Virus record (IMG/VR): IMGVR_UViG_3300009027_000028
Span: 1-26,809 of that record
DNA from: a virus
DNA length: 26,809 nt
Direction: 5' to 3' (one strand)
Shown in pieces: positions 9,055-24,315 of the stretch (the first letter of the stretch is position 1; each line of letters starts with the position of its first letter). The notes below the pieces were generated by a model, which saw only the letters and a program-made list of their open reading frames with translations, made no database searches and was not told where the DNA came from. The position numbers and the translations under genes were made by a program.

Positions 9055-9474
9055 TCAATACGTTTGAAATTCTTTTATTGGTATGTATGAGCAGATGGAG
9101 GTGTCTTGAGGATCTTCTCGGTCGGATCTGCCACCTACCATCCACTCTGTGTGAGGGATGTTCATGTCTATGCAGCCTAGAACGTCTGTCCACTGGACCC
9201 ACAGCCTACAGTCTATGTCTGGGTGTATGGCAGCGTATGAGGCGGCATTCCTGAGCTTGTGAACGTCTATGAGGTAGGTTTCGTGCAGGGTTGATGGAAT
9301 GGTCCTGCACTTGATCTCAACGAGGCCTGTGATCAGTCCCTGTTTGGTGACTGCGTAGTCGAAGGAGTCACGTGGAGGCAGCTTGATTAGGGCTGCTCCT
9401 GTGATCTCCTCGATCCTCATTTTGACGAGTGTCTCTCGATCCCTGTCAGCCTGTGACTCGTAGGTTTGTCGCAT
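9055..9474 (-). CDS. PD-(D/E)XK-like nuclease, small
   Basis: A 139-residue protein. An N-terminal helix (RDRETLVKMRIEEITGA) precedes the core DSFDYAV...GLVEIKCR. Asp39 and Glu53-x-Lys55 fit the PD-(D/E)XK nuclease active site, with a conserved upstream Glu in the first helix. The beta strand after EIK and the helix YLIDVHKLRNAASYAA match the usual alpha/beta fold. Such small phage nucleases act on branched or foreign DNA, but the substrate cannot be read. The gene overlaps the dNMP kinase gene by 29 bases. An inactive or structural role is possible, because the motif is short. Confidence 0.6.
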   Translation of the reverse strand: MRQTYESQADRDRETLVKMRIEEITGAALIKLPPRDSFDYAVTKQGLITGLVEIKCRTIPSTLHETYLIDVHKLRNAASYAAIHPDIDCRLWVQWTDVLGCIDMNIPHTEWMVGGRSDREDPQDTSICSYIPIKEFQTY

Positions 9475-9976
9475 ATTTCAGCATATTGATTATGTTAGTT
9501 TTGAGGTGTTGTTGGGTGGAGTCGTTGTCGATGGTGTAATCTGGTTTGATGCTGTCGATTGCTGTCTCTGACACGTGGTGGTCGGAGGAGTCATCGAACC
9601 CCGGGCGATTGATTTTGACTACGATGCCGCCAAGGGAGCGAATCCACTCGGCCTCCAGCGGGAACCTGACATCATCACACACCATGACAGTGGTGAATGG
9701 GGAGTATTGTCGCCACGTGTGGTTTGCTCGCTTGACCCAGTAGTCGCTGCCGAATAGCTGCTTCATTGCCTCGCCATAGGTTTGAAGGACTGGCCTGATG
9801 GTCTCCTTGTTTTTGTCGTCGATTGGAACACCCATGAGTCCCTGTATATCGAGCTTGATAGGTGTGGCTAGGGAGATCCTGACCGAGTCGCACTGCATGA
9901 GGTCCAGTATGATGTCTGCAGCGGTAGACTTTCCACTGCGTTTCTTACCTGATAAACCAATGATGGTGTGTGTCAT
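9446..9976 (-). CDS. Deoxynucleoside monophosphate kinase
   Basis: A 176-residue P-loop kinase. Walker A is GKKRSGKST (residues 10-18). VCDDVRFPLEAEWIRSLGG carries the acidic D and R pattern of phage dNMP kinases, and INRPGFDDSSDHHVSE resembles the substrate-binding lid (compare IxRPG...HxSE in the T4 gp1-like family). The enzyme phosphorylates dNMPs to dNDPs to supply phage DNA synthesis. Its ATG overlaps the helicase stop (ATGA), so its product would be made with the replisome proteins. The length is shorter than T4 gp1 (about 240 aa) but typical of small phage versions. Confidence 0.85.
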   Translation of the reverse strand: MTHTIIGLSGKKRSGKSTAADIILDLMQCDSVRISLATPIKLDIQGLMGVPIDDKNKETIRPVLQTYGEAMKQLFGSDYWVKRANHTWRQYSPFTTVMVCDDVRFPLEAEWIRSLGGIVVKINRPGFDDSSDHHVSETAIDSIKPDYTIDNDSTQQHLKTNIINMLKYATNLRVTG

Positions 9977-12105: not shown

Positions 12106-12935
12106 AGCCGATCATACACGTTCAAGACCAGTGGCTCGTGCGGCGTATAATCGGGCCACACAGAGAGCTTCAGACAGCTCTCCAGTGTGCTGTAGGCCTC
12201 GTCAAGCTGCTCCTGAGCCACCTGACGGTCATTATCTGTGAACTCCACAATACAGCTATTGTATGGCCACTCTGTCTCGACCACGGCCCAGTACCACTTG
12301 TCGATTTTGAGCCCAGCCTTCGCTGCAATGTTTCGATAGTTGACTTCCTGCCAAGCGTATTTCAAATTTCGGGCAGTTCGTTTGAACTCGAGAGGTTTCG
12401 CGCCACCTTTTCTTGTGGTCTTGAGATCAATCACAGTGGAGCCTGAGAGCATGTCAATACGGCATTTAGTGTCCACGCTTCCATGAAAATTTTGCGCGAA
12501 CACGCTCACCTCAGAACTGAAGAACTTGATGTCTCGGACAATGGGTAGACTGTAGAATCTGTCAGAGATCGCAACAGCCCTGTCGTAGTCATCCTGTTTT
12601 ATGATCAGCTTTCCGGAAGCTTCCTGCTCCTTCCACCACTCCTTATTGACTTTAAGACGTTTGTCCTGCTTGTCTGGTGGACATATGCTGTGCAGTGCAT
12701 CGAATTGATCGCGCTCAAGAATATAACTGTGACAAAGGCGGCCAAAAGCCATTGCCGTGCTGTCCACCCTCGGAGCCTGACCTGTGATTTTCCCGTGAAA
12801 CTCATTCGGGTTATCGATCAGTTTAAGGTCGCTGGTGGAGAGGGCTGAGTCAGCCCGGTAGACTGACTCAGCTAGGTCGTTGTAGACCCCGCTCTTAAAA
12901 TTAGAACGGAGCATCTGTTGTTTCTTCAAAAACAT
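12102..12935 (-). CDS. RecE/RecB-family exonuclease (PD-(D/E)XK)
   Basis: A protein of 277 residues from ATG 12935, which has AAAGG eight bases upstream. A GTG at 12953 or an ATG at 12914 are alternatives. Motifs in order: FGRLCH (the GxxxH helix, about 64-69), KCRIDML (Asp161), VIDLKT (Asp170, Lys172) and WQEVNY (QxxxY, Gln196/Tyr200). These define the RecB/Cas4/RecE nuclease branch, which resects double-stranded ends. Next to an SSB-like gene and a resolvase it forms a phage recombination module, although no annealing protein (RecT, Beta or Erf) is recognised. The start overlaps the SSB-like gene by 35 bases. Confidence 0.8.
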   Translation of the reverse strand: MFLKKQQMLRSNFKSGVYNDLAESVYRADSALSTSDLKLIDNPNEFHGKITGQAPRVDSTAMAFGRLCHSYILERDQFDALHSICPPDKQDKRLKVNKEWWKEQEASGKLIIKQDDYDRAVAISDRFYSLPIVRDIKFFSSEVSVFAQNFHGSVDTKCRIDMLSGSTVIDLKTTRKGGAKPLEFKRTARNLKYAWQEVNYRNIAAKAGLKIDKWYWAVVETEWPYNSCIVEFTDNDRQVAQEQLDEAYSTLESCLKLSVWPDYTPHEPLVLNVYDRL

Positions 12936-13488
12936 GACCTTTACCTTTCGCACTCATGAACTCGGGGGATTCGGAGATTTTCTTCTGCATCCACTGGGGA
13001 ACTTTGTCCCAGTTTTTAAGTTCGGCAGAAATCTCGAACACGAACGGATCGCTGGTGACCTCACCACACGGCAAGCCCTCTGGCATTATCGAAAGCCCGG
13101 TGATGTTGTCGTAAACCTGCTCGTCTTTACCCGGGCGGTGGACAATGGTCGCCAGTGTTGCCCTGCCCAGCAGCTCGGATAAATCGATGCCGCTTTCCAT
13201 TTCAGACTTAGTCAACTGCTTCCCCTTAATCGCTACCACGTACTTGCACAAGGTAGACTTCTGGTTCAATGAGGATGTCACTATGACACTTCTAGACAGC
13301 GACACGGGACCATCATCCTCTTTGAATGTGTGTTTCTTGTTCGGGAACTCGAACAGAAAACCAATTTGCTTTTTAGGTCCGTAGAATGTCTCTTGAGTCC
13401 CCAAGTCTACTAGCCCGACAAGAACAGCCACGTGGCTTCCTTCGGATAGCATTACTCGATCTTTACTCTTCTCCATTTGTATCTTCAT
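12901..13488 (-). CDS. SSB-like OB-fold protein
   Basis: A 195-residue protein with a good ribosome site (AAAGGA about seven bases before ATG). The pattern GSHVAVLVGLVDLGTQET, then IGFLFEFP, then RSVIVTSSLNQKSTLCKYV, then IDLSELLGRATLATIVHRPG, then YDNITGLSIMPEG fits a phage OB-fold family found beside RecE-type exonucleases, thought to bind single-stranded DNA. The last residues, EETTDAPF, resemble the acidic tip of bacterial SSB (DIPF), the docking site for recombination and repair enzymes. The family call is from memory of pattern, while the tip is seen directly. Its role would be to coat ssDNA and recruit the neighbouring nuclease. Confidence 0.65.
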   Translation of the reverse strand: MKIQMEKSKDRVMLSEGSHVAVLVGLVDLGTQETFYGPKKQIGFLFEFPNKKHTFKEDDGPVSLSRSVIVTSSLNQKSTLCKYVVAIKGKQLTKSEMESGIDLSELLGRATLATIVHRPGKDEQVYDNITGLSIMPEGLPCGEVTSDPFVFEISAELKNWDKVPQWMQKKISESPEFMSAKGKGHVFEETTDAPF

Positions 13489-13865
13489 TTTGATTCCTTT
13501 TGTTTATTTATTTGTATCCATTCCTCCAGTGCTTTTATGTCCGCGCACTGGAAAATTCTAAGCAGGTCTTCTGCCTGTAAAATAGCGATCCACTTTCCGT
13601 GGTTTTTCTTCCAGACCACCACAGGTATCTCTGTGTCTCGAGCATCCCCTTCTGCCTGTGCGATCCAGTCTCTAATTAATGCCTTCTCTGTGTTTTTAAC
13701 CTCCCAGTGAACAGGCAGGTCTTTACAGGAAACGTCAGGGCTGTCGTGGTTCTGCTGCGACTGGTGGAACCCTGTTCGGCGAGCATCAAATCCGAAATAC
13801 TTCAGGATTGACACCCACGCCCGCTCACCTCGAGCACCTTTCTGTTTACTGTTGATCTTGCTCAT
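13485..13865 (-). CDS. Holliday-junction-resolvase-like PD-(D/E)XK nuclease
   Basis: A 126-residue nuclease with the Hjc-type order: KGARGERAW (Glu14 in the first helix), SPDV (Asp44), HWEVKNTE (Glu55-x-Lys57) and a following helix WIAQAEGDA, then the strand PVVVWKKNHGKWIAIL. This is the arrangement in archaeal Hjc and many phage resolvases that cut four-way junctions before packaging. It is coupled by ATGA overlap to both the SSB-like gene and the upstream unknown. A general endonuclease of the Mrr/VRR type is the alternative. The active-site residues appear intact. Confidence 0.75.
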   Translation of the reverse strand: MSKINSKQKGARGERAWVSILKYFGFDARRTGFHQSQQNHDSPDVSCKDLPVHWEVKNTEKALIRDWIAQAEGDARDTEIPVVVWKKNHGKWIAILQAEDLLRIFQCADIKALEEWIQINKQKESK

Positions 13866-14374
13866 AAAACGTATATGTGACCGTATTTAAGATCCTGTTT
13901 CCCTCCGCGCAGAACGCAGACGTGATTAAACGCTTTTGCTGCTTTAGCTAGAGCTCGCTCGGACTCCCTGAGACACCACTCCACGTTCGTGACCAAGCCA
14001 TACTGAGACCGCCACTTGTGGTCCGTATCCGGAATCCACTCTGTGATCATGTCTGGCCAATATGGAGGTAGTGTGCGATCTGGGATCTGAGTGACGATTT
14101 CAGGCGCATCCGCGCGAACGCCAGAAACATATTCACGCAGGTGCAGAGCCCATCGGTAAAACGACTCACCCCTCAAGCTCTCGACATAGAACCAGTCTGC
14201 CCTGCTGGTCTCCTCGTTGCATCCATTTCGAGCCACAACGGCAAAACTGGCCCCACTGAGCTCCCGCAGAAGCCAGTGACTTATGCGCCGAGTGGTTGTC
14301 GGCTCCTTAATGCTTTGGTCGCCTGTAAATTGTCTGATGATCTCTGCGGGTTGCACGTGTTCAGGCTCGCACAC
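13862..14374 (-). CDS. First gene of the replication operon, unknown (170 aa)
   Basis: A 170-residue protein starting at GTG 14374, with GGTGG six bases upstream. Seen features are a helical, basic middle (TTRRISHWLLRELSG), tryptophan-rich stretches (GESFYRWALHLREYV, PPYWPDMITEWIPD) and a C-terminal helix ending in a Gly-Lys-rich tail (RGGKQDLKYGHIYVL). No family is recognised. Being the promoter-proximal gene of the early operon, it may be an early host-takeover or regulatory protein, but this is positional inference only. Its stop overlaps the resolvase ATG. Confidence 0.65.
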   Translation of the reverse strand: MCEPEHVQPAEIIRQFTGDQSIKEPTTTRRISHWLLRELSGASFAVVARNGCNEETSRADWFYVESLRGESFYRWALHLREYVSGVRADAPEIVTQIPDRTLPPYWPDMITEWIPDTDHKWRSQYGLVTNVEWCLRESERALAKAAKAFNHVCVLRGGKQDLKYGHIYVL

Positions 14375-14607
14375 CTTTCCACCATTGACAAGTTTTTTTC
14401 TTAACCCGCAGAAGAAGCAGTGTGGGATGTCGGAAATTAGCCTCTAAGCCGACTACTTAGAGGACAATAAATTTCAGTCCCGACCCTCAAGTGTCCGAGG
14501 GGTGTGACTAAAAAAACTTGACAAGATGTTACAGATCCACACGAACAGCCTTCAAGGCTTCCTTGTCTTTTATTGCATGACAAGGCTGTCTGTATGATAG
14601 TTATCAC
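14375..14607. promoter_or_regulatory. Divergent regulatory region with nested inverted repeats
   Basis: This is 233 bases between the leftward replication operon and the rightward glycan cassette, with no gene. An 11-base perfect inverted repeat, CAAGTTTTTTT (14389-14399) and AAAAAAACTTG (14510-14520), encloses a shorter perfect hairpin, CCTCTAAG (14441-14448) and CTTAGAGG (14456-14463). Each outer arm overlaps a TTGACAAG (14385-14392 and 14518-14525). Further right are CCTTGTC/GACAAGG (14561-14567, 14579-14585) and TGATA-GT-TATCA (14595-14606) just before the first cassette ATG. TTGACA elements suggest sigma70-type -35 sites, but no well-spaced -10 was found. Promoters for both directions are expected here. 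Confidence 0.55.
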
Positions 14608-15585
14608 ATGAACTTGCTATATTTGAGTGTGCATGAAGTGCAGGAGTACGATGATTTAAGGATGTTTGCTGAAATACCGAATATCACAGTGATGCCCATC
14701 GGCAGGTATCACCAGAAAAACGCATCCGGACTAAGGCCATCTTTAAACAATGAATTCCCTGATTCATGGCGTAAAAGCTGGGCAACAATTAAGGGGACCG
14801 AAGAACAACCAGACCAAAGGTTTCACATAACATCTGAAGCAGTAAAGCCGTTTGATGTTATTATGGTGAATCATCTATGGGAATGGTTGTTTGGCAATTT
14901 AGAAGCCTTCCAAGGGAAAACAGTGATCTGGCGTGACATTGGTCAAATTGTTGACACATGCGAGGATTACTGGATAGCGGAGGCAGCAAAACACGGTGTT
15001 AAAATTGTTCGATACTGGGATGGATACCAAAGCAGACCAAACTATGCAGGTCATGATGCCGTGATTCCATTCGGCAAATTTGCTGGAGACTTTAAGAGGT
15101 GGAACGGACAGAAGTTAAGTGTCTATGGCATTTGTCAGCACTTTGTGAATAGAGGGGCAGCGTGCAATAAACAAATATTTGATAAAGTCGAAACCAAAAT
15201 CCCAATGTCAATGAACGGAGCCCACAACGGGAAGCCACACAAAAGCTACGAAGAGATCCTTCAAGACATGGCTGATCACCGCTTAATGGTTTATGGTGGC
15301 ACTCGCCCAGCTCCATACACGTTGGCCTTGATGGAAGCGATGTTCACAGGTATCCCCGTTTTCACGATGAAGGATTTAGGGTGGCCGAGCGCAATGGAAG
15401 AGCTGTTAACTCAAGAGCAGCTATGCGACACCGAAGACGAGCTGGTGAACAAGCTGGAGTTCTACATGAGCAAAGGTGATGAAACACTTCGCAGGATAAG
15501 CGATCACCAGAGATATATAGCGATGGAAAAGTTTTCAGCTTTTAATGTAATGAAGCTGTGGGATAATTTCTTCAAGACAATATGA
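14608..15585 (+). CDS. Glycosyltransferase, GT-B fold (GT4-like)
   Basis: A 325-residue enzyme. The C-terminal half has the donor-binding signature of GT4/GT1-type transferases: GGTRPAPYTLALMEAM (230-245, Glu243 as the EX7E-type acidic residue) followed by TGIPVFTMKDLG. The N-terminal half is a Rossmann-like acceptor domain (MNLLYLSVHE; FDVIMVNHLWEWL; KTVIWRDIGQIVD). It would move a sugar from a nucleotide donor to an unknown acceptor. It has no membrane segment. It is first in a four-gene cassette and overlaps the methyltransferase gene as ATGA. Sampled GC of the cassette is near 42%, lower than most neighbouring stretches, hinting at separate acquisition. Confidence 0.75.
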   Translation: MNLLYLSVHEVQEYDDLRMFAEIPNITVMPIGRYHQKNASGLRPSLNNEFPDSWRKSWATIKGTEEQPDQRFHITSEAVKPFDVIMVNHLWEWLFGNLEAFQGKTVIWRDIGQIVDTCEDYWIAEAAKHGVKIVRYWDGYQSRPNYAGHDAVIPFGKFAGDFKRWNGQKLSVYGICQHFVNRGAACNKQIFDKVETKIPMSMNGAHNGKPHKSYEEILQDMADHRLMVYGGTRPAPYTLALMEAMFTGIPVFTMKDLGWPSAMEELLTQEQLCDTEDELVNKLEFYMSKGDETLRRISDHQRYIAMEKFSAFNVMKLWDNFFKTI

Positions 15586-16166
15586 ACACCGAAAAAGTAT
15601 ATGAATGGTTTGAGCCGTATCGTAAAAAGTCTTGCAGCAGGTTTGAAACTTTTAGGGGTGCGCTCGCTCACATTAAATCAAGCGATCCTCTTATCGTTGA
15701 GACTGGCACTGTCAGAAAGGTAGAGGACTACGGTGCCGGGTATTCAACATACATATTTGGTGAGTATGCTTCATTGTTTGGGGGAAGAGTTATATCAGTT
15801 GACATTAGCCCAGACAACATAAGGACAAGCAGGGAATGCACGAGTCAGTTCAAGGACTTCATTACACATGTCGAAGGAGATTCCATGCAATACTTGAATG
15901 AGTCAAAGTTGATGATTGATTTGCTTTACCTAGATTCATTGGACTGCCCAGTCGATGGTGACGCAAGCGATGCCCAAAGACATAACTTTTTAGAGTTTCT
16001 TGCTGCGGAAAAGTGTTTGCATGAAGAGTCTGTTGTTTTGATAGATGATTCTGGAGGATTCTCGAATGGAGGAAAAGCAAGGTGGACTGAAATATACCTT
16101 GAGGCAAGGGGATGGAATCCGGTGATCCGTTCACATCAGTCTCTTTGGGTCAGGAACGCGAAATGA
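15582..16166 (+). CDS. Class I SAM-dependent methyltransferase
   Basis: A 194-residue enzyme with a Rossmann methyltransferase core: IVETGT (38-43), GGRVISVDISPDNI (67-80, with the acidic SAM-ribose residue Asp74), VEGDS (97-101), LLYLDSLD (114-121) and VLIDDSG (152-158). The VETGT...YLDSLD...IDDSG pattern fits the Methyltransf_24-like group that often works on sugars or glycans. No DNA-methyltransferase catalytic motif (DPPY or similar) is present, so a restriction-evasion role is not supported. Translation is coupled to the preceding glycosyltransferase. It could methylate a sugar as a cap or tailoring step; the substrate is unknown. Confidence 0.8.
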   Translation: MNTEKVYEWFEPYRKKSCSRFETFRGALAHIKSSDPLIVETGTVRKVEDYGAGYSTYIFGEYASLFGGRVISVDISPDNIRTSRECTSQFKDFITHVEGDSMQYLNESKLMIDLLYLDSLDCPVDGDASDAQRHNFLEFLAAEKCLHEESVVLIDDSGGFSNGGKARWTEIYLEARGWNPVIRSHQSLWVRNAK

Positions 16167-16170
16167 TGTC

Positions 16171-16713
16171 ATGTTTAAAAGGCTGCTAGTTGGTAGTGCT
16201 CATTACGTCCCCGATTGGTGGAACGAGAATGGGTCGAAGTTCGAGAGGGTATGTTGCATCAACAACTCAATAAGGGTTGTGAAAGAGAAGCACGATGTGT
16301 GGTATGTGTCAGAGGACTACTTCATGCACAATAATTATGACATGAAAAAAATACTTGATGGGTGCCTAGATGAAGATTTCTTTATCAGGATAAAATCTAT
16401 CATGTCCCGGGCTCCGCACTGGTATTCCTGCCCCGGCAATGGCACTATGCTTGTGAATGCCTGCCGTGACATATTGAACAATGCTACAATGTCAGGTGAA
16501 CAAACCGAGCTATATCTCATTGGATGCGATCTCGATTACTCCGGTGATAAAACTCACTTTTACGATGGAGGAACCCCGGACCCACGAAGAATACCGGACG
16601 ATGTACTGAAGGGACACCTTGACAAGTTAACCTCTGACTATGTGCCTTATCACAGAATATATAACCTCGGACCACAGCCAAGCTTCCTGCCGTTCCCTGC
16701 TGGGAAGATATGA
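16171..16713 (+). CDS. Possible GT42/DUF115-like glycan enzyme
   Basis: A 180-residue protein four bases after the methyltransferase. NNSIRVVKEKHDVWYVSEDYF resembles the early nucleotide-binding part of DUF115/sialyltransferase-like proteins. PGNGTMLVNACRDILNNA (about 88-105) followed by TELYLIGCDLDYSGDKTHFY (112-131) matches their G-S/T-x-x-x-x-A helix and LiGxDxxY...H pattern (GT42 sialyltransferases and MptE-like proteins). It is short for these families (usually 250 or more residues). It may use a CMP- or UDP-sugar donor, but this assignment is tentative. It has no transmembrane segment. Confidence 0.45.
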   Translation: MFKRLLVGSAHYVPDWWNENGSKFERVCCINNSIRVVKEKHDVWYVSEDYFMHNNYDMKKILDGCLDEDFFIRIKSIMSRAPHWYSCPGNGTMLVNACRDILNNATMSGEQTELYLIGCDLDYSGDKTHFYDGGTPDPRRIPDDVLKGHLDKLTSDYVPYHRIYNLGPQPSFLPFPAGKI

Positions 16714-16720
16714 TTAACCT

Positions 16721-17359
16721 ATGGATTCGCTCAGCATACACTGCACGTCCACAAAGCACAGCATGTGTTTGTACAGGGATGTATTCCTTCCGTCTTACAT
16801 TCAGCACTGCTCTCACATACCTCACACGCTTAACATGCATCCGGGCCCGGAGGGAGGTAACGGAAATCACGGATCTGCGGAATGGTTTTTTGGGACCAGA
16901 GGCAAACTGGAGTTGTGTTTATTAATGTGCGAAACCAACCCATCACAAGCTGTGTGCATATCGGACGTAGACATGCTTTGGGTTGGAGACCCGCAAAGAG
17001 AGCTGAGCGAGATCGAAGCGAACGAGATATATGTTACCCGCGACAGTCTGCTGGATAAAAGAATCAATTCCGGGATCATTGCATTCAGGCCTAGCGACAA
17101 AGTGTTCTCAATGCTCACGTGCGCTCTGGATTATTCACGCATAAACAATTTGGATGATCAGTGTTCAATGGAGGCCACCCTGAAGACCAGAATGCTGTCA
17201 TTAGATTTCTGCAATACAAAGACGGTTGATGGAACGATACAGCGTGATCATGTGTGCTTTCACCCGACAGTCTCACAGCCAAGCGAAGGCTTAAGTAGTG
17301 CATCAAAGAAAATGTCACACGTTGCGAATTATCTTTCACGTTTTGGAAATACGCATTGA
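16721..17359 (+). CDS. Glycosyltransferase, GT-A-like (Nucleotid_trans type)
   Basis: A 212-residue protein. VCISDVDMLWVGDP (78-91) contains the DxD metal/nucleotide-sugar motif (Asp82, Asp84) at a strand end. INSGIIAFRPS (115-125) is the conserved NSG-xx-F loop of GT-A transferases in the nucleotide-diphospho-sugar transferase group. LDDQCSMEATL is the usual acidic D-Q helix, and CFHPTVS supplies a late His. These residues make an active retaining-type enzyme likely. The length is near the minimum for the fold. It ends the cassette, 118 bases before a strong terminator-like hairpin. No ribosome site is well placed, so coupled translation is likely. Confidence 0.7.
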   Translation: MDSLSIHCTSTKHSMCLYRDVFLPSYIQHCSHIPHTLNMHPGPEGGNGNHGSAEWFFGTRGKLELCLLMCETNPSQAVCISDVDMLWVGDPQRELSEIEANEIYVTRDSLLDKRINSGIIAFRPSDKVFSMLTCALDYSRINNLDDQCSMEATLKTRMLSLDFCNTKTVDGTIQRDHVCFHPTVSQPSEGLSSASKKMSHVANYLSRFGNTH

Positions 17360-17476
17360 CACATAATCAAACTTGATCAACACTGCTTCTGCCCTCCCGA
17401 TCCGTTGTGGTGAGGGGATTTAGGGCTTCCCGGAAACCTATTGGGTTCTTGGACAGTGATACGACGACATCGCTAT
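17360..17476. other. Non-coding spacer downstream of the glycan cassette
   Basis: About 117 bases with no gene and no tRNA-like cloverleaf. It contains the short palindrome TTGATCAA (17374-17381) and a G-rich patch. I see no promoter or repeat worth calling. Confidence 0.3.
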
Positions 17477-17523
17477 CGCCCCGCCTCCACAAGCTGCTGG
17501 ATACAGTATAAAGAGGCGGGGCG
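17477..17523. terminator. Hairpin between convergent operons
   Basis: A perfect 11-base inverted repeat, CGCCCCGCCTC at 17477-17487 and GAGGCGGGGCG at 17513-17523, with a 25-base loop. It sits between the end of the + strand glycan cassette and the end of the - strand virion operon (stop at 17531). GTTTGCGTTT follows on the + strand, a weak U-rich tail; on the - strand there is no U tract. A bidirectional terminator or transcript-end stabiliser is the best explanation. The long loop is unusual for a factor-independent terminator. Confidence 0.6.
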
Positions 17524-17530
17524 TTTGCGT

Positions 17531-20500
17531 TTACTGCTGCGACAGGTGCCGCTCTGCTGCCTCTACTGACTGGAACACAGGGCCGATGCGGCGTCCTGTG
17601 GGGCCGTAGACCCTCACACCTGCCCTGCTTGAGGTCTGGACCGCACGATGACCTTCTGGGGTTGTATAAATAGCTCCTCCGCGATTATTCAGGGAGCGTT
17701 GAGGTGAGAACCTGTTGGCTTCACTGCGGATTTGTTCCTGCTGCTTAGTCCTTGCAACACCGTAATCAGACCTAAGCTTAACAGGGCTCTTGTAAGATCG
17801 AGGATCAAGTGATGCCTCGGTCAGCACAGGCTGCATTGCTTCTTCAGTGAGGCCTTTAAGAGCCATCACCCTGCTGACGTTGGCTCCGATCTTGCCCTCA
17901 GGCGTTATTTGCTGCCCCGGCTTCATGATGCCTGACTCTTCATCAATTCGATTGGTGAACGAATCTCTCAACAAATCAAATGCACTCATTCTGCCCTTGA
18001 TGTTGGATATTGACTTCCCTAGCACTCCGTATTGATAAGCTGGATGCACTGGGAGGCCTAAGTCTTTAGGATTGATGATTGGGGTAGGGGCAGATTTATC
18101 AAACTGAATGACCTTTACGATGTCGCCTGTCCTGTATCCTTGATCATCCTTGTAGGCGTTGAGCTTGTCATACATGTCCTTCCAGAAGATTCCACCATAC
18201 TTCTTCTTGTAGTCATTAGAAGCAACCTGCTGCCACATCGTCTTCCTGCCGCCGAAAGTCATCTCTGGTAAGGCTTCCTCAATGTGTTCAATGGACTTGA
18301 ACTCGAAGCTCTCCCATTTTGACGGGCCTTTAGGGGTGAACTTCTTGCCCTTTGCTTTGGCCTTTTCAGCTTCCAGTTTATTGGATTTTAATCGCTCTGC
18401 CTTGGCTTTCTTCTGGATCATAGCAGAAGCCTTCTTCAGAATCTGCGGCAGGTCTTTTTTGATCTGAGGGTTCTGCTGCATGTCATACTTGAACTCCTCG
18501 AGCATGACCTCGGAGTAGGTCTTGTTGCCAGCAACAGACTCCTCCTTCTGCAGGACTACGAGCCCTATCCCGTCAGTTTGCCGGATAGCCCTTTCGAGCT
18601 GAGAAGCAATCGATCCACCCTCAACTGCCCACGCTATGGTGCCTTGATTGTCTGCCAAGTCAGGATGATCAGGTCCGCCGCGAAGCTCAAACACACGTCC
18701 TGATCTGGCAGTGTACTCACCAACCTTCATGCGGTCAGCCATCATGATGAACGCCTTCTTCCCGGCGAGCTGCTTAATGTCGTAGCCCGGGTCATTCGTG
18801 GCAGGGCTGAACCTAGCCATCACACCCGGCGTGAGTGAGACCACTCCGTTCAATATGGTTCCTGATTCAGAGGGATCATTCAGCTTCCGCTGAACAATTG
18901 ATGGTCGATCTGCTGCAGGCGAGAACCTGACACCTGCTCCTTGTGCAGGCTCATCTCTCCTAGATATATTTATTTCCTCACCGTTCCTTGTCTTGATCTT
19001 GATGTCCGCATCATTGAATGCGACATAATTGAAAGTCTGAACTTCCTCTCCCGAAGCTTTCCTTGACATTCCGTCCTTGTAATTAATGCCTTTGATTCCG
19101 TAAACATTCAGCAGATCAGAAGCATTCTTTTGGCGATCTTTTATGGAGTCACCGACGAATTCCAATGCAGCATATATTTTTTGCCCCGTTAAGCTTTTTC
19201 TCATGGGCCTTTCGTCAAACGAGTATGTGCCATGGATTTGCTCAAACAATTTAGCCATCTTCAATTCTTTGGATCGATAGAAGGTGTCAAAGGCGAGGCT
19301 GTCTGGATGTTGTGGGTCGTCTTGTAAAAGAGCCGCTTCAGCGAGTCTTTCGGATTCGTCTAAGAATGATTTATAATTGTCCCTCGTCACCCCTAAAGAT
19401 TCTGCCATTCGATCAATAGAACTCTTAACGAAATCTGACTGGTTGTCATAGTTCTCGTCCCATTTGATCAGCGTGGATTCGTCAGCATCAAAGTCCACCT
19501 CATACAGGTTGCCTTTTGGCTCAGTAATGGAATCCTTGCTGGCTCCTTTATTCCTTTCGTAAAAGTCCATCAACCTAATCACAGGCTCATTCACAGAATC
19601 TTTGAGCCTAAAGATTGAATACTCAACTTGCTGCCTAACGTAGTCTGTGTCCAGCCCCTCTTTGACTCGTTGAAAGTAAGACTTGATGTAGCTGTGCAAG
19701 TCAGCCTCAAGCGGACCAACATTGAACTCCCAGCCGGGAGGCATCAACTCATTGTTCACCACCATGTCTGGTGTCAATGTATTCCTGTAGTGGTCTGCGA
19801 CCTTCCTGTCTTCAGCAAAATAGAGACCATAACCATAAGCCGTGGCCCCTTCACCTGTGCCAATCTTTGACAAGCTGAACTCGTCAAACTTGTGTGGAGA
19901 TCCATGATAAGCAGGAACGAACCGTATTGTTCCGGGTGCAGTTGTGAATCCACCGTTGGCTGCCATGGAATACGGTTTATCAGAAACTGTCCTAGATCCT
20001 CCAATGGGAGTAAAGTGTGTCTGTGCTCTCTGGTATGCAGACTCCGAGAAAGAGACGATCGGCCTACCTTCTTTTTGCTGCAACGCCACAATGCGATCCA
20101 GACGAAAACTGCGCCAAGGAAAATCTTTCCCGCCTTCAAACAACCTCCTTTGTCTGGCTGTCATTGTGCCTTCTGGAACCTCAGGATTTCCTTTAACGTT
20201 TCGCACACTTAGAATCTTGTTCAGGAAGTCACTCTTACGCTGCGAGCCCAGAACTTCAGCGGTCCTCTTCTCACCAGATCTCAGCGCGTTGATGTAGCTG
20301 TGCAGGTCCAAGAACATCTGAGCCTCTGAACCGAAAATCTTCTGCATCTCCGCAGTCTGATTGTAAAGCCTGCTGGCTTTCGACTCAGTGAGGCTCATGT
20401 CTAATACACGTGTAGTGATCGTTCCAGTGATAGGGCTGACCACGATGTCATAAAGCAACGCATTCCGGTTGCTTATGGGAAGATTCTTTGCTCGCGTCTT

Positions 20501-22891
20501 ACCGAGCTTCGTCTTCATTGTGGAGGCTCCGTATGTCACGTTCACATACTGATCTGCTTCATTGATCTTTGAGTATTCTGCCAGAGCCTTCTTTATCGTG
20601 TCATTAATCAGAGGCGAATCCAACAAAGCCTGAAGCTGGCCAGCACTAAAACGAGCCCCTCTGTAGCTACCGTCTGGCTGTCTTGTCAGCCCTCCTTCCC
20701 CACCTACTTGATCCAGAATGTTTGTGATGGTTCTGGCTCGTTCCTTGGCTATCTTCTTCTGCTCAGAGTCGCCCATGATGACACGCTTTCCGCTCCGGTC
20801 TGTCTTGGCGACTCCCATGGCCTCCATCTCTCGGAATGTATCGTCGTCTGACAAATCGACCGCGCTATAGGTCTTGACTGGCTCGTCCATGGAGAGGTCC
20901 ACCTTCCTGCCTGCTTCCCTGCGAGCCTTGACGAGGTCTCGCATAGCAGAATCAAGCCTTCGTGACTGGCGGATCTGCTGGCCGAAGATCGGGCTCTGGA
21001 AGGCCTCATAAACGCGATCCAGTTTGCCTTTTGTGAAGCGATCAAAGACGCCCTTGAGACCTTCTGCAAAGCTGCTTCCAGAAAAGATGTAGTTGCTGTT
21101 TTTCCCTTTGATGAAGTTGGCGAAATACTCTGCCCCCATCTCCTCTAGAATGTAGTCTACCTTGGCCTGAGAAGATCCCCCCATCTTCTCTTGATACCTT
21201 TGGCTGATGTCTATCTGCTTGCCCAATCTGTTCTCGTAATCCCGAATGAAATCATTCACCTGTTCTGGTGAATACATACGGCCAATCGTGTTCTTGATTG
21301 TGCTGACCATCGCATCGAAGCCATCCAGCCGCGCCATAGCATGAAAGGTTTCATGAAGCATGGTCTGAGCGTCTGCGTTGACGTTCAGGTATACGACAGG
21401 CTTGCCGTCCTCCTCACCCAAAAACCCTGCAGCGTCCCCGAGCTTAGTTCCTTTTTGGTCAACCACGAAGTCAGGGTCCACGTGACGCACTGTAGCTGAT
21501 CCCTGTAGAAGGATCTGCTCAGCATCCATTCGAGCTATCCGGTCTTCTCGGCTAGAGATGCCAGCCAGACGCTCCCTGTCCTCCACGGACTTTGTCTCAA
21601 TCCACCTTCCGTAGTCGCTGTCCTGAGCGTTCCGCAGAGAGGCCCCAGTCAAGCCTTCGACACTCCTCCCCAACGTGGCACCGCCTGCACCAAGAACTCC
21701 GCCAGAGCCTATACCCTGAGCGAGTCCCTCGAGCCCACCAGAAGCGAGACCGATGCCTCCACCGATAGCTCCACCAATGACTGCACCAGTTGCCGCTCTG
21801 CCTGCGTAGTCTACTGGTCTGTCAAGGAACTGCAGCCTTCCTGCAAGCTTGCCTGCGATCGTATCAGGCTGATGCATGTGCACACGAGCCATTCCTCCCA
21901 GTCTGGTTGGGGTGTGAGACATCGCTTCACCAAAACCTGTGAGAAGTCCTCCTGCGACATCCAGCAGTGTCGGTGTTGCCACTGCGGCCCCGACAAGGCC
22001 TGCAGTTCCTCCACCGACGACACCTCCCGCGACAGCAGCAACAACGCCACCGGGCACCACTACATTAGCTAGTCCACCAGTGGCCTCATCTATGATCTCT
22101 GTCGCTCCCTTAACTCGGTTCTTGGCTCCCTCAATGAGTCCTCCAGTGTATTCGGAGGCGATCGATGCTGCTCGACCAGCCGCCCTGACCGGAGCCCCGA
22201 GTGTTCTTGCAGCAGCACGACTTGCTTTGGATGCGAGCTTGCCTCCCGGGACAAAGAATTTAGGATCGATGAACTCACCAGTGAGCTCGGCTGCTTGAGT
22301 GTTGATTTTGGCAAGGTCAAGTTTGGCTCCAGCCATGCCTGCCCAGTCAGCATATTCATTCCACGCCGACTTATCACCTCGCTCAATGGCACCTCGAACA
22401 TTTTGAAGCTCCTTTAATTTTACGAAATTGTTATACTGATTCGTCGTCTCGTCCTCGCTGACTCCGCCAAAAGCATCGATCTTAGATCCGATGTATCCTT
22501 TGGCCATCTGGATCAGGGTCTCAGTGTCGTAGGTGCCTCGAGCTGCTCCCTCCAGAAATGTTCTGGCAGATGTCCCCGGATCAAATATGTTGACATATGT
22601 CCGCACGGCATCTGGCAGGTTGTTAACGATTCGCGCCGCTGTGTCTACAGCAGCTTCGGCCACAACTCCGGGGACCTGACCCCAAGTCATGTCAGGACGC
22701 GCCTGCTTATAACGGACAAAGTCCTCCCGGGTCAGGGAGGACGATGGCGTTTCAGGATTGTCAAATCGAGCTACCAACTTTTCATCCGGCTCAGGGTAGT
22801 CTCGATTAATGATGTCCTTGATCCTGTCCTCAGACATCTGGTCTGGGAACTCTAAATTGACACCATAGTCCTCAAGATAGATTTTCTGCAT
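17531..22891 (-). CDS. Giant polyvalent virion protein: zincin plus ADP-ribosyltransferase-like module
   Basis: A 1786-residue protein. ATG 22891 is chosen because it abuts the upstream stop (TAATG) and the next residues, DYGVNLEFPDQMSEDRIKDI, are a typical internal-virion-protein N-terminus. Gly/Ala-rich hydrophobic stretches at about 271-318 and 366-418 could cross a membrane during ejection. HETFH at 513-517 is an HExxH zinc-protease motif, with Glu584/588 as the possible third ligand. Residues about 990-1299 match the phage ADP-ribosyltransferase-like module: YHGSPHKFDEFSL (His996), GYGLYFAED (Tyr1024), and a late NYVAFNDADIKI. Another conserved-looking module lies at about 1368-1468 (KKAFIMMADRMKVGEY, ELRGGPDHPDL, GTIAWA). 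RFSP/RFSA tetrapeptides separate modules. Phages inject such polyvalent proteins with their DNA; the targets are unknown. Confidence 0.75.
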   Translation of the reverse strand: MQKIYLEDYGVNLEFPDQMSEDRIKDIINRDYPEPDEKLVARFDNPETPSSSLTREDFVRYKQARPDMTWGQVPGVVAEAAVDTAARIVNNLPDAVRTYVNIFDPGTSARTFLEGAARGTYDTETLIQMAKGYIGSKIDAFGGVSEDETTNQYNNFVKLKELQNVRGAIERGDKSAWNEYADWAGMAGAKLDLAKINTQAAELTGEFIDPKFFVPGGKLASKASRAAARTLGAPVRAAGRAASIASEYTGGLIEGAKNRVKGATEIIDEATGGLANVVVPGGVVAAVAGGVVGGGTAGLVGAAVATPTLLDVAGGLLTGFGEAMSHTPTRLGGMARVHMHQPDTIAGKLAGRLQFLDRPVDYAGRAATGAVIGGAIGGGIGLASGGLEGLAQGIGSGGVLGAGGATLGRSVEGLTGASLRNAQDSDYGRWIETKSVEDRERLAGISSREDRIARMDAEQILLQGSATVRHVDPDFVVDQKGTKLGDAAGFLGEEDGKPVVYLNVNADAQTMLHETFHAMARLDGFDAMVSTIKNTIGRMYSPEQVNDFIRDYENRLGKQIDISQRYQEKMGGSSQAKVDYILEEMGAEYFANFIKGKNSNYIFSGSSFAEGLKGVFDRFTKGKLDRVYEAFQSPIFGQQIRQSRRLDSAMRDLVKARREAGRKVDLSMDEPVKTYSAVDLSDDDTFREMEAMGVAKTDRSGKRVIMGDSEQKKIAKERARTITNILDQVGGEGGLTRQPDGSYRGARFSAGQLQALLDSPLINDTIKKALAEYSKINEADQYVNVTYGASTMKTKLGKTRAKNLPISNRNALLYDIVVSPITGTITTRVLDMSLTESKASRLYNQTAEMQKIFGSEAQMFLDLHSYINALRSGEKRTAEVLGSQRKSDFLNKILSVRNVKGNPEVPEGTMTARQRRLFEGGKDFPWRSFRLDRIVALQQKEGRPIVSFSESAYQRAQTHFTPIGGSRTVSDKPYSMAANGGFTTAPGTIRFVPAYHGSPHKFDEFSLSKIGTGEGATAYGYGLYFAEDRKVADHYRNTLTPDMVVNNELMPPGWEFNVGPLEADLHSYIKSYFQRVKEGLDTDYVRQQVEYSIFRLKDSVNEPVIRLMDFYERNKGASKDSITEPKGNLYEVDFDADESTLIKWDENYDNQSDFVKSSIDRMAESLGVTRDNYKSFLDESERLAEAALLQDDPQHPDSLAFDTFYRSKELKMAKLFEQIHGTYSFDERPMRKSLTGQKIYAALEFVGDSIKDRQKNASDLLNVYGIKGINYKDGMSRKASGEEVQTFNYVAFNDADIKIKTRNGEEINISRRDEPAQGAGVRFSPAADRPSIVQRKLNDPSESGTILNGVVSLTPGVMARFSPATNDPGYDIKQLAGKKAFIMMADRMKVGEYTARSGRVFELRGGPDHPDLADNQGTIAWAVEGGSIASQLERAIRQTDGIGLVVLQKEESVAGNKTYSEVMLEEFKYDMQQNPQIKKDLPQILKKASAMIQKKAKAERLKSNKLEAEKAKAKGKKFTPKGPSKWESFEFKSIEHIEEALPEMTFGGRKTMWQQVASNDYKKKYGGIFWKDMYDKLNAYKDDQGYRTGDIVKVIQFDKSAPTPIINPKDLGLPVHPAYQYGVLGKSISNIKGRMSAFDLLRDSFTNRIDEESGIMKPGQQITPEGKIGANVSRVMALKGLTEEAMQPVLTEASLDPRSYKSPVKLRSDYGVARTKQQEQIRSEANRFSPQRSLNNRGGAIYTTPEGHRAVQTSSRAGVRVYGPTGRRIGPVFQSVEAAERHLSQQ

Positions 22892-24315
22892 TATCGTGAT
22901 TCCAATTGACCCGACATTCCGTAGGTGAGAGTTTTGTCCACAGAGCCCTGTGCTTGACCTGACCACATCCCTGACGGCTGCTGCCAAGAGATTAGAGCTG
23001 CGTTCTTAGCCAATCCCCTCTCAACTTTCTTCAGTAATGTCTCAAGTGCTGTTTTATTGGATGATGACAGTGACCAGAATTTGGTTGGGTCTCTGATAAT
23101 AGACTTGAGCAACTCTTGTTCAGTATCAGTTACAGCACCCGGTCCTACGATCTCTTTACGCAAAGCTCCCTGCAGCGCCCCCTGAAGAACTCCTGCTTCA
23201 CTCCTTAGATCAAGCGATGTCCAAGGAGAGTCCATCTCGTTGATCTCAAGAAGTCGCTTAATTCCTGTTTGCGCCTCAGTAGCTGATATAAGAACTTCCC
23301 TGAAGTCTTTGGCGATTTCAGGACTAGGTGCAACTCCATATCCAGTGACCGTGCTGGCCCCTATCTCGCGCTCAAGCTTCATAAGGGAAATCTGATCCGA
23401 TGGAGTCAGCTTGTCCTGTTTAGCGTAGAGCATCTCATATAGATTCTTTGCTTGCGTGGGGTATTTTTCAGCGAGCTCAGGGATGTTCTCAGAGACACGC
23501 TTCATCACTTCCTTGCTGGTCTCAAGCCTAGTGTCACCCTCTGCAGCCTGAATTCTGAGAATGTCTAAGTCTCTGGCTGCTTTCTGGACCTCTGGTGAGG
23601 GCTCAAGTGCTGGCTCAGGTTCCATGGGGCTCTGCGGCTGGGGTGCAGGTGAAGGTGTTTCGGTGTCTGTGATTTGTCTAGGGCCGAGTCTACCACCTCT
23701 CCTCATAGCTTTCATCTCCTCTCTCATCTGAATTTCTGGAGACCTCCCAGACGGCTTAGAGGGAGCAAAGGTGTCTTGCAACGACATTACTGGGACTCTG
23801 TCTGGATCGTATTGTTCAGCAAAAGCCCTAGCTCTAAATCGCTCCTCAGTGGTCCTACCTGTTGGTTTTGATGGAAACTTAAACTTCGGCCTAAACTCTC
23901 CCTGCTGCGCTTGAATCAGTCTCTGCTCTGCTGCTGTGATTTCTGGCCCGAAGTCTCTTTGGACCTGCTGTGGCTGGAATGCTCGCAGCATATCAGAATA
24001 AAAGCCTTGAGCCTCTTCTTTCTCACGCTGAGCTGCGATCTGTGGATACATCTGAGCATAAGCAGCCAGCTCTGATGCTTCCATGCCTTTAAGAAGATCC
24101 TGATCGGCCCCGAGTGCTGTCAATGCCTCTACAGTCCCTTTCTTGAACTGTTCACGCCTCTTCATCTCCTCTTTGCGTTCAGAAAACTTCTTGATCCCCT
24201 CACCGAGGCTTGCACCAAATCCTGCGATACCTGCACCGAGAAGTTCTCCAACTCGAGACCTCTCGGTAGGCTGGACGATTCCCTGTCCTTGATATGTCTG
24301 CTGTGAAAATGCCAT
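22891..24315 (-). CDS. Helix-rich internal virion / structural protein
   Basis: A 474-residue protein rich in charged helices (SERKEEMKRREQFKKG; EREIGASTVTGYG) with a Pro-rich linker (about 225-250, PSPAPQPQSPMEPEPALEPS). The C-terminal part, EIVGPGAVTDTEQELLKSII then TKFWSLSSSNKTALETLLKK, is a pattern I associate with phage internal or ejection proteins (GxGAxSdxEqxLL...DPTxxxSL). Its stop overlaps the giant gene's ATG, so both are probably made in similar amounts and packaged together. The N-terminus (GELLGAGIAGFGASLGEGI) is a short amphipathic Gly/Ala helix that may insert in membranes. Confidence 0.6.
   Translation of the reverse strand: MAFSQQTYQGQGIVQPTERSRVGELLGAGIAGFGASLGEGIKKFSERKEEMKRREQFKKGTVEALTALGADQDLLKGMEASELAAYAQMYPQIAAQREKEEAQGFYSDMLRAFQPQQVQRDFGPEITAAEQRLIQAQQGEFRPKFKFPSKPTGRTTEERFRARAFAEQYDPDRVPVMSLQDTFAPSKPSGRSPEIQMREEMKAMRRGGRLGPRQITDTETPSPAPQPQSPMEPEPALEPSPEVQKAARDLDILRIQAAEGDTRLETSKEVMKRVSENIPELAEKYPTQAKNLYEMLYAKQDKLTPSDQISLMKLEREIGASTVTGYGVAPSPEIAKDFREVLISATEAQTGIKRLLEINEMDSPWTSLDLRSEAGVLQGALQGALRKEIVGPGAVTDTEQELLKSIIRDPTKFWSLSSSNKTALETLLKKVERGLAKNAALISWQQPSGMWSGQAQGSVDKTLTYGMSGQLESR

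Follow-up and report, generated by a model that had tools for sequence, protein, structure and literature searches.

An exchangeable cassette of predicted glycosyltransferase and methyltransferase genes at one site in closely related uncultured phages

The sequence analyzed here, called the window, is the IMG/VR virus record IMGVR_UViG_3300009027_000028 over its full length (26.8 kb; 26,809 nucleotides), a tailed-phage contig from an uncultured virus of bacteria. Between two operons on the − strand, the window carries a cassette (14608–17359) of four tightly packed open reading frames (ORFs) on the + strand, among them predicted glycosyltransferases (GTs) and a methyltransferase. Judged by sequence comparison, this locus is an exchangeable island, as close relatives change there sharply from near-identical flanks to unrelated genes. 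The new element is that whole, unrelated sets of GT and methyltransferase genes are traded at one site in closely related phages. We think, with moderate confidence, that the exchangeable cassette draws on host nucleotide sugars to build a short methylated glycan, with virion proteins as the most likely acceptor.

The exchange was seen by comparing the window with contigs L016 (= L011), which is 93–96% identical to it in most of the aligned flanks, and L009 (92%). The alignment with the window holds to about position 14526 in both contigs, and in L016 it restarts at about 17346 (blastn). Between these points L016 has a different set of genes (12234–14456 of that contig), here called cassette B to distinguish it from cassette A of the window, with the same site, edges, and orientation. 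Its products are a 290-amino-acid (aa) GT-A-like protein with no Pfam match, whose homologue on L015 is GNT-I/MGAT2-like at a sub-threshold level only; a GT32-like protein of 237 aa (Gly_transf_sug, 3.5e-4, slightly below the cut-off); and a 215-aa S-adenosylmethionine (SAM) methyltransferase (1.8e-8). L009 contains the beginning of cassette B at the same left edge and in the same orientation, after which the contig ends, and on L015, which is 65–81% identical to the window, homologues of all three cassette B proteins adjoin the gene for a polyvalent-type protein. Like cassette A, cassette B combines two putative GTs with a SAM methyltransferase; unlike cassette A, it has three genes and the methyltransferase comes last. 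No pairwise similarity was detectable between the proteins of the two cassettes. The original prediction, made from the window's letters alone, had described the cassette as inserted, and the different GT/GT/methyltransferase set that close relatives carry at exactly this site bears this out.

A trimmed form of cassette A is found on L001 (94% identical), in which ORF1 and ORF2 are present and a deletion of about 1 kb has removed ORF3 completely and ORF4 except for about its last quarter. Because the 3′ end of ORF4 survives, we infer that this state reflects loss and is not ancestral. Between the window and L001, the ratios of nonsynonymous to synonymous divergence (dN/dS; Table 1) indicate purifying selection on both ORF1 and ORF2, which argues that the four-ORF array is not a product of chance. 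The same two sequences differ less at synonymous sites in the cassette (30.5 of 312 sites for ORF1 and ORF2 together) than they do across five genes of the flanks (164.5 of 777; Fisher p = 3e-6), a pattern that would be expected if the cassette had moved between backbones or lineages.

The layout of cassette A is as originally described: ORF1 and ORF2 share 4 bases (ATGA, 15582–15585), and the later gaps are 4 and 7 bases. The cassette is placed outside the core operons, with the recombination operon on one side and the polyvalent gene on the other, both on the opposite strand; its nearest − strand neighbors are at 13862–14374 on the left and, on the right, the large polyvalent ORF itself (17531–22987). 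Its GC content, also predicted to be low, is 0.449 compared to 0.508 in the rest of the window, making it essentially the lowest 2.75-kb stretch there (rank 3 of 482 sliding windows); that of cassette B is similarly low (0.455). As for the borders, a regulatory region had been proposed on one side and a hairpin on the other. The right-hand hairpin is present and terminator-like, lacking a clear T run, and its stem arms also occur in L013, L014, and L016. The left-hand region consists of a gap of 233 bases; a leader hairpin lies in it, and no convincing sigma-70 promoter was found.

Several smaller observations concern the same site. The sequence TTGACA occurs in the shared DNA just beyond both cassette edges (14519–14524 and about 17357–17362); the copies could serve as a −35 box on the left and as part of a stop context on the right, or could be a trace of the exchange mechanism. 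The contigs of eight relatives end at or in the cassette (at window positions 15008 for L003, 13944 for L007, 14227 for L012, 17420 for L013, 17433 for L014, 17476 for L001, and 17556 for L017, and inside cassette B for L009); such ends, clustered at 13944–17556, are what a polymorphic site that interrupts assembly would be expected to produce, and the sampling is biased toward this region. On L015 (3291–8373), the recombination operon is apparently in reversed orientation with respect to the polyvalent gene, and a set of the cassette B type separates the two.

Table 1. Coordinates in the window of the cassette genes, cassette edges, and associated features, with the evidence for each.
Feature	Position	Strand	Evidence and remarks
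Left edge	14499–14526	+	Conserved flank ending GTGTGACTAAAAAAACTTGACAAGA, after which cassettes A (window, L001) and B (L016, L009) diverge; alignment of four relatives, blastn breakpoint 14526
Leader hairpin, 5′ untranslated stretch of cassette A	14561–14585	+	7-bp stem within the 233-base left gap; fold of 14540–14610 (71-nt leader), z −2.5
ORF1, predicted GT-B glycosyltransferase, 325 aa	14608–15585	+	Homologues are the N-terminal domains of planctomycete proteins scoring above the PF13524 cut-off; direct Pfam match weak; dN/dS 0.12 vs. L001
ORF2, predicted SAM-dependent methyltransferase (Methyltransf_24), 194 aa	15582–16166	+	Pfam 2.4e-6; phrog_24975 2.1e-34; dN/dS 0.25 vs. L001
ORF3, 180-aa protein without assignment	16171–16713	+	No family or relative found; missing from L001
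ORF4, putative GT-A glycosyltransferase (Nucleotid_trans), 212 aa	16721–17359	+	DVD motif; Pfam 1.2e-4, 22.6 bits vs. cut-off 22; only the 3′ quarter kept in L001
Segment deleted in L001	16172–17190		11-base near-repeat at the joint; blastn and L001 sequence
Right edge	17346–17376	+	Conserved flank starting CGCATTGACACATAA, from which the final gene of either cassette (A or B) takes its stop codon; alignment, blastn breakpoint
Hairpin in the interval where cassette and polyvalent gene converge	17478–17522		10-bp stem, −28.1 kcal/mol, z −4.1

Identification of ORF1 as a predicted GT-B glycosyltransferase comes by way of its homologues. Compared directly with Glycos_transf_1, it gives a weak match (E = 0.08, Pfam); its homologues at loci L034 and L035 pass PF13524 (Glyco_trans_1_2) with 27.2 and 32.8 bits against a curated cut-off of 25. 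These two and a third planctomycete protein (L037) consist of an N-terminal ORF1 homologue (E = 5e-33 to 2e-30) followed by a C-terminal ORF2-like domain. A search with the ORF1 family by itself yielded two further full-length homologues in the planctomycete family, with C-terminal partners that are FkbM-like (L119) and GT34-like, of GT-A type (L120), both partner matches being under the Pfam cut-offs. We had expected all full-length ORF1 homologues to be fused to a methyltransferase of the ORF2 type; L119 and L120 disprove this, and the partner varies. As read from these matches, the ORF1 family is repeatedly found fused to a predicted methyltransferase or to a module of GT-A type, and enzymes of these predicted kinds also adjoin ORF1 in the phage. 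The N-terminal domain of the five fusion proteins is homologous to ORF1, but they are single chains and chromosomal. Beyond the starting one, no additional full-length ORF1 homologues were found in 392 genomes of Planctomycetota, 149 of the phylum of a Rhodospirillales relative, and 292 of Cyanobacteria. Two structural routes to ORF1 were discarded: an AlphaFold model from five sequences had a predicted template-modeling (pTM) score of 0.44 and its best Foldseek matches were to generic Rossmann and barrel folds (TM-score 0.2–0.25), so that we make no fold claim, and phmmer against PDB sequences returned crystallin matches only, which are meaningless.

The match of ORF2 is to Methyltransf_24, a broad family that is not specific to DNA, and O-methylation is its predicted activity. 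Scanning species genomes with an ORF2 alignment gave 80 loci (L029–L108), about half of them from Pelagibacterales and the rest from cyanobacteria, planctomycetes, Chlamydiae, and Proteobacteria. When the neighborhoods of the planctomycete loci were inspected by eye from short translations, a few genes resembling GTs or FkbM were seen, but nothing that was evidently a complete polysaccharide cluster; the ORF2 homologue of cyanophage P-TIM68, by contrast, sits within a large sugar cluster. The ORF2 family thus appears to be used both inside and outside such clusters, and the planctomycete homologues of the cassette genes seem not to be confined to complete host polysaccharide loci.

For ORF4, the Nucleotid_trans match is marginal, just over the cut-off; no phage relatives were found, and the sole viral contig on which a relative was found is L001. 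ORF3 has no Pfam or NCBIfam match at E ≤ 1, only weak PHROGs matches without known function, and no relatives among PDB sequences, phages, viral contigs, or species genomes. Of the enzyme labels first proposed, those of a GT-B enzyme, a SAM methyltransferase, and (marginally) a GT-A enzyme therefore stand, but that of a GT42/DUF115-like enzyme for ORF3 does not. Pfam gave no match at E ≤ 1 to PF01973 or PF06002, although with no relatives from which to build a profile a remote relation is possible. PF01973 is also absent from ten genomes carrying ORF2 relatives, which says little. The ORF3 motif GNGT...LYLIGCDLDY...HFY, which we take to be DUF115/GT42-like, is a lead only and leaves the label unproven. 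An AlphaFold model of ORF3 made without homologues was discarded (predicted local distance difference test, pLDDT, 34).

The rest of the genome bears on where such a glycan might be placed. The window encodes a large terminase, a DnaB helicase, exonuclease VIII, a deoxynucleoside monophosphate (dNMP) kinase, and the 1818-aa polyvalent-type protein. A second contig, G001, is 99.97% identical to the left part of the window over the 11.8 kb compared and overlaps its right end as well, which suggests a circular map of about 38.4 kb. G001 contributes the virion operon, whose products include a major capsid protein of SU10 type and a tail protein of 758 aa that has a lectin-like domain. This operon also contains a second GT-B gene (L025, 5538–6569 on G001; 343 aa; Glyco_trans_1_4, 6e-15; PHROG “glycosyltransferase”), which adjoins the gene for a structural protein of 741–745 aa in all four lineages checked (G001, G002, G003, and G006; seen at loci L018, L020, L024, and L025).

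The short, methyl-capped glycan of the original prediction is kept as the best reading. Host nucleotide sugars would serve as donors from which ORF1 (GT-B), ORF4 (GT-A type), and perhaps ORF3 attach a few sugars, one of which ORF2 would O-methylate. This would take place in the cytoplasm, ahead of virion assembly, on at least one of the proteins that make up the phage particle. Virion proteins seem the most likely acceptor since the enzymes are predicted to be soluble, no flippase or polymerase accompanies them, and another GT is encoded in the virion operon. None of the four proteins has a membrane span (maximum 19-residue Kyte–Doolittle mean 1.09), and no flippase, polymerase, nucleotide-sugar synthesis, or integrase gene was recognized in either the window or the near-identical contig G001, where many genes are without assignment; both results accord with the earlier claim that no flippase, membrane, or polymerase gene is present. 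Among lineages, the cassette is swapped as a block for a non-homologous one of the same kind, presumably via recombination in the conserved flanks.

A described parallel supports virions as the target. In Corndogvirus (cluster O mycobacteriophages), an O-methyltransferase and three tandem GTs are reported to modify the capsid and tail tube (PMC11600133). This set, gp33–gp36 in phage Firecracker, goes against the initial statement that no described phage system has such a combination. The two sets agree in gene number and size, each with one 194-aa Methyltransf_24 methyltransferase (gp33 in Firecracker) and small, soluble, closely packed GTs (predicted ones in the present set), and without a flippase. 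However, phmmer found no match at E ≤ 10 between Firecracker gp33–gp36 and cassettes A or B, so that only the broad Methyltransf_24 family is in common; moreover, the Firecracker set is co-oriented within the head operon, between portal and protease, whereas here the cassette is intergenic, reversed, and swapped between lineages. By these comparisons the cassette is similar to the Corndogvirus system in composition and is not a homologous member of it.

Several points weigh against a glycan on virion proteins. ORF3 is without assigned function and the family match of ORF4 is marginal; the cassette lies away from the capsid and tail genes, unlike that of Firecracker; soluble GTs could equally act on the lipopolysaccharide (LPS) core of the host; and the comparative evidence consists of metagenomic contigs throughout. 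What the sequences show directly is the genes themselves, the families of ORF1, ORF2, and ORF4, the swap, the deletion, the purifying selection, and the fusions of ORF1-type proteins with methyltransferase or GT-A-like partners; which sugars are used, in what order the enzymes act, what they act on, how cassettes are exchanged, and what the phage gains are parts of the explanation that we infer.

The strongest rival is that the target is the host surface, with soluble transferases extending and methylating the LPS core or another cytoplasmic glycolipid, for example to block superinfection. The core oligosaccharide is made on the cytoplasmic side, so a phage flippase would be unneeded, and soluble GT and methyltransferase families are widespread in LPS and polysaccharide synthesis. 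The cassette is also a separate transcription unit distant from the virion genes, and block exchange fits a receptor arms race. We nevertheless consider this rather unlikely: a membrane partner is absent, the parallel described in PMC11600133 acts on virions, and no integrase was recognized among the genes of the window and G001, many of them without assignment, a purely lytic phage having less to gain from surface conversion. Phage serotype-conversion (Gtr) clusters have phage-borne GTs in common with the cassette, but family scans and the lack of any hydrophobic span indicate that it is without a GtrA flippase, a GtrB bactoprenol transferase, and a membrane-bound specific transferase.

Glycosylation of an intracellular host or phage protein, such as a defense protein or polymerase, in the service of counter-defense or takeover, strikes us as improbable. 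This variable cargo site does adjoin the polyvalent gene, which has an ADP-ribosyltransferase (ART)-like stretch (below cut-off); yet several transferases together with a methyltransferase suggest an oligosaccharide and not inactivation by a single sugar, and scans with Pfam, PHROGs, and NCBIfam (PADLOC was not run) gave no toxin- or defense-type family. Marginally less credible again is that the cassette is passenger DNA, selfish or neutral, with no role for the phage, as its low GC and its exchange and deletion in relatives might suggest; the purifying selection on ORF1 and ORF2 argues otherwise, as does a replacement set that matches in function rather than consisting of random genes. Glycosylation of modified bases in phage DNA, also named in the original prediction, is very improbable: a dNMP kinase is present, but no hydroxymethylase, thymidylate-synthase-like, or other base-modifying enzyme was recognized among the part of the ORFs scanned in the window and G001, many of them without assignment, and ORF2 and its relatives belong to the broad methyltransferase family described above. 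The kinase gene itself (9446–9976; DNMK, 2.6e-20) lies in the replication operon, with no base-modification gene recognized alongside.

If virion proteins do carry the glycan, swapping the cassette or trimming it to ORF1 and ORF2 would make the surface glycan differ among lineages. A tentative extension, which we regard as possible but doubtful, is a “glycotype switch”: a dedicated site at which unrelated GT/methyltransferase sets replace one another or are trimmed, such that near-identical phages wear different methylated glycans, with changes in adsorption, defense evasion, or predation. If true, it would be a phage counterpart of the exchange of O-antigen clusters in bacteria. Near-identical genomes with regions of completely different genes have been described as metaviromic or flexible genomic islands of marine phages (Mizuno 2014, PMC3909814); a term search of the paper found no mention of glycosyl- or methyltransferases, and compared to the islands as described there, the alternatives reported here are functionally matched glycan sets with sharp edges. 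If the virion glycosylation reported for mycobacteriophages, by a methyltransferase and several GTs, is also practiced with unrelated enzymes in a small uncultured lineage, and if the enzyme set is exchanged as a block between near-identical phages, surface glycans could be among the traits that evolve fast in phages generally. Closely related backgrounds that carry cassette A, cassette B, or the trimmed version provide a natural set for probing the roles of phage glycans.

Variation was also observed in the polyvalent gene (− strand). A second swap zone lies at 18930–20011, where L016 has unrelated sequence; L013 and L014 have an insertion of about 580 bp at 18915–18930, and L016 has an extra insertion of about 600 bp near 17713. 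Whole internal domains of the polyvalent protein appear to be exchanged between relatives.

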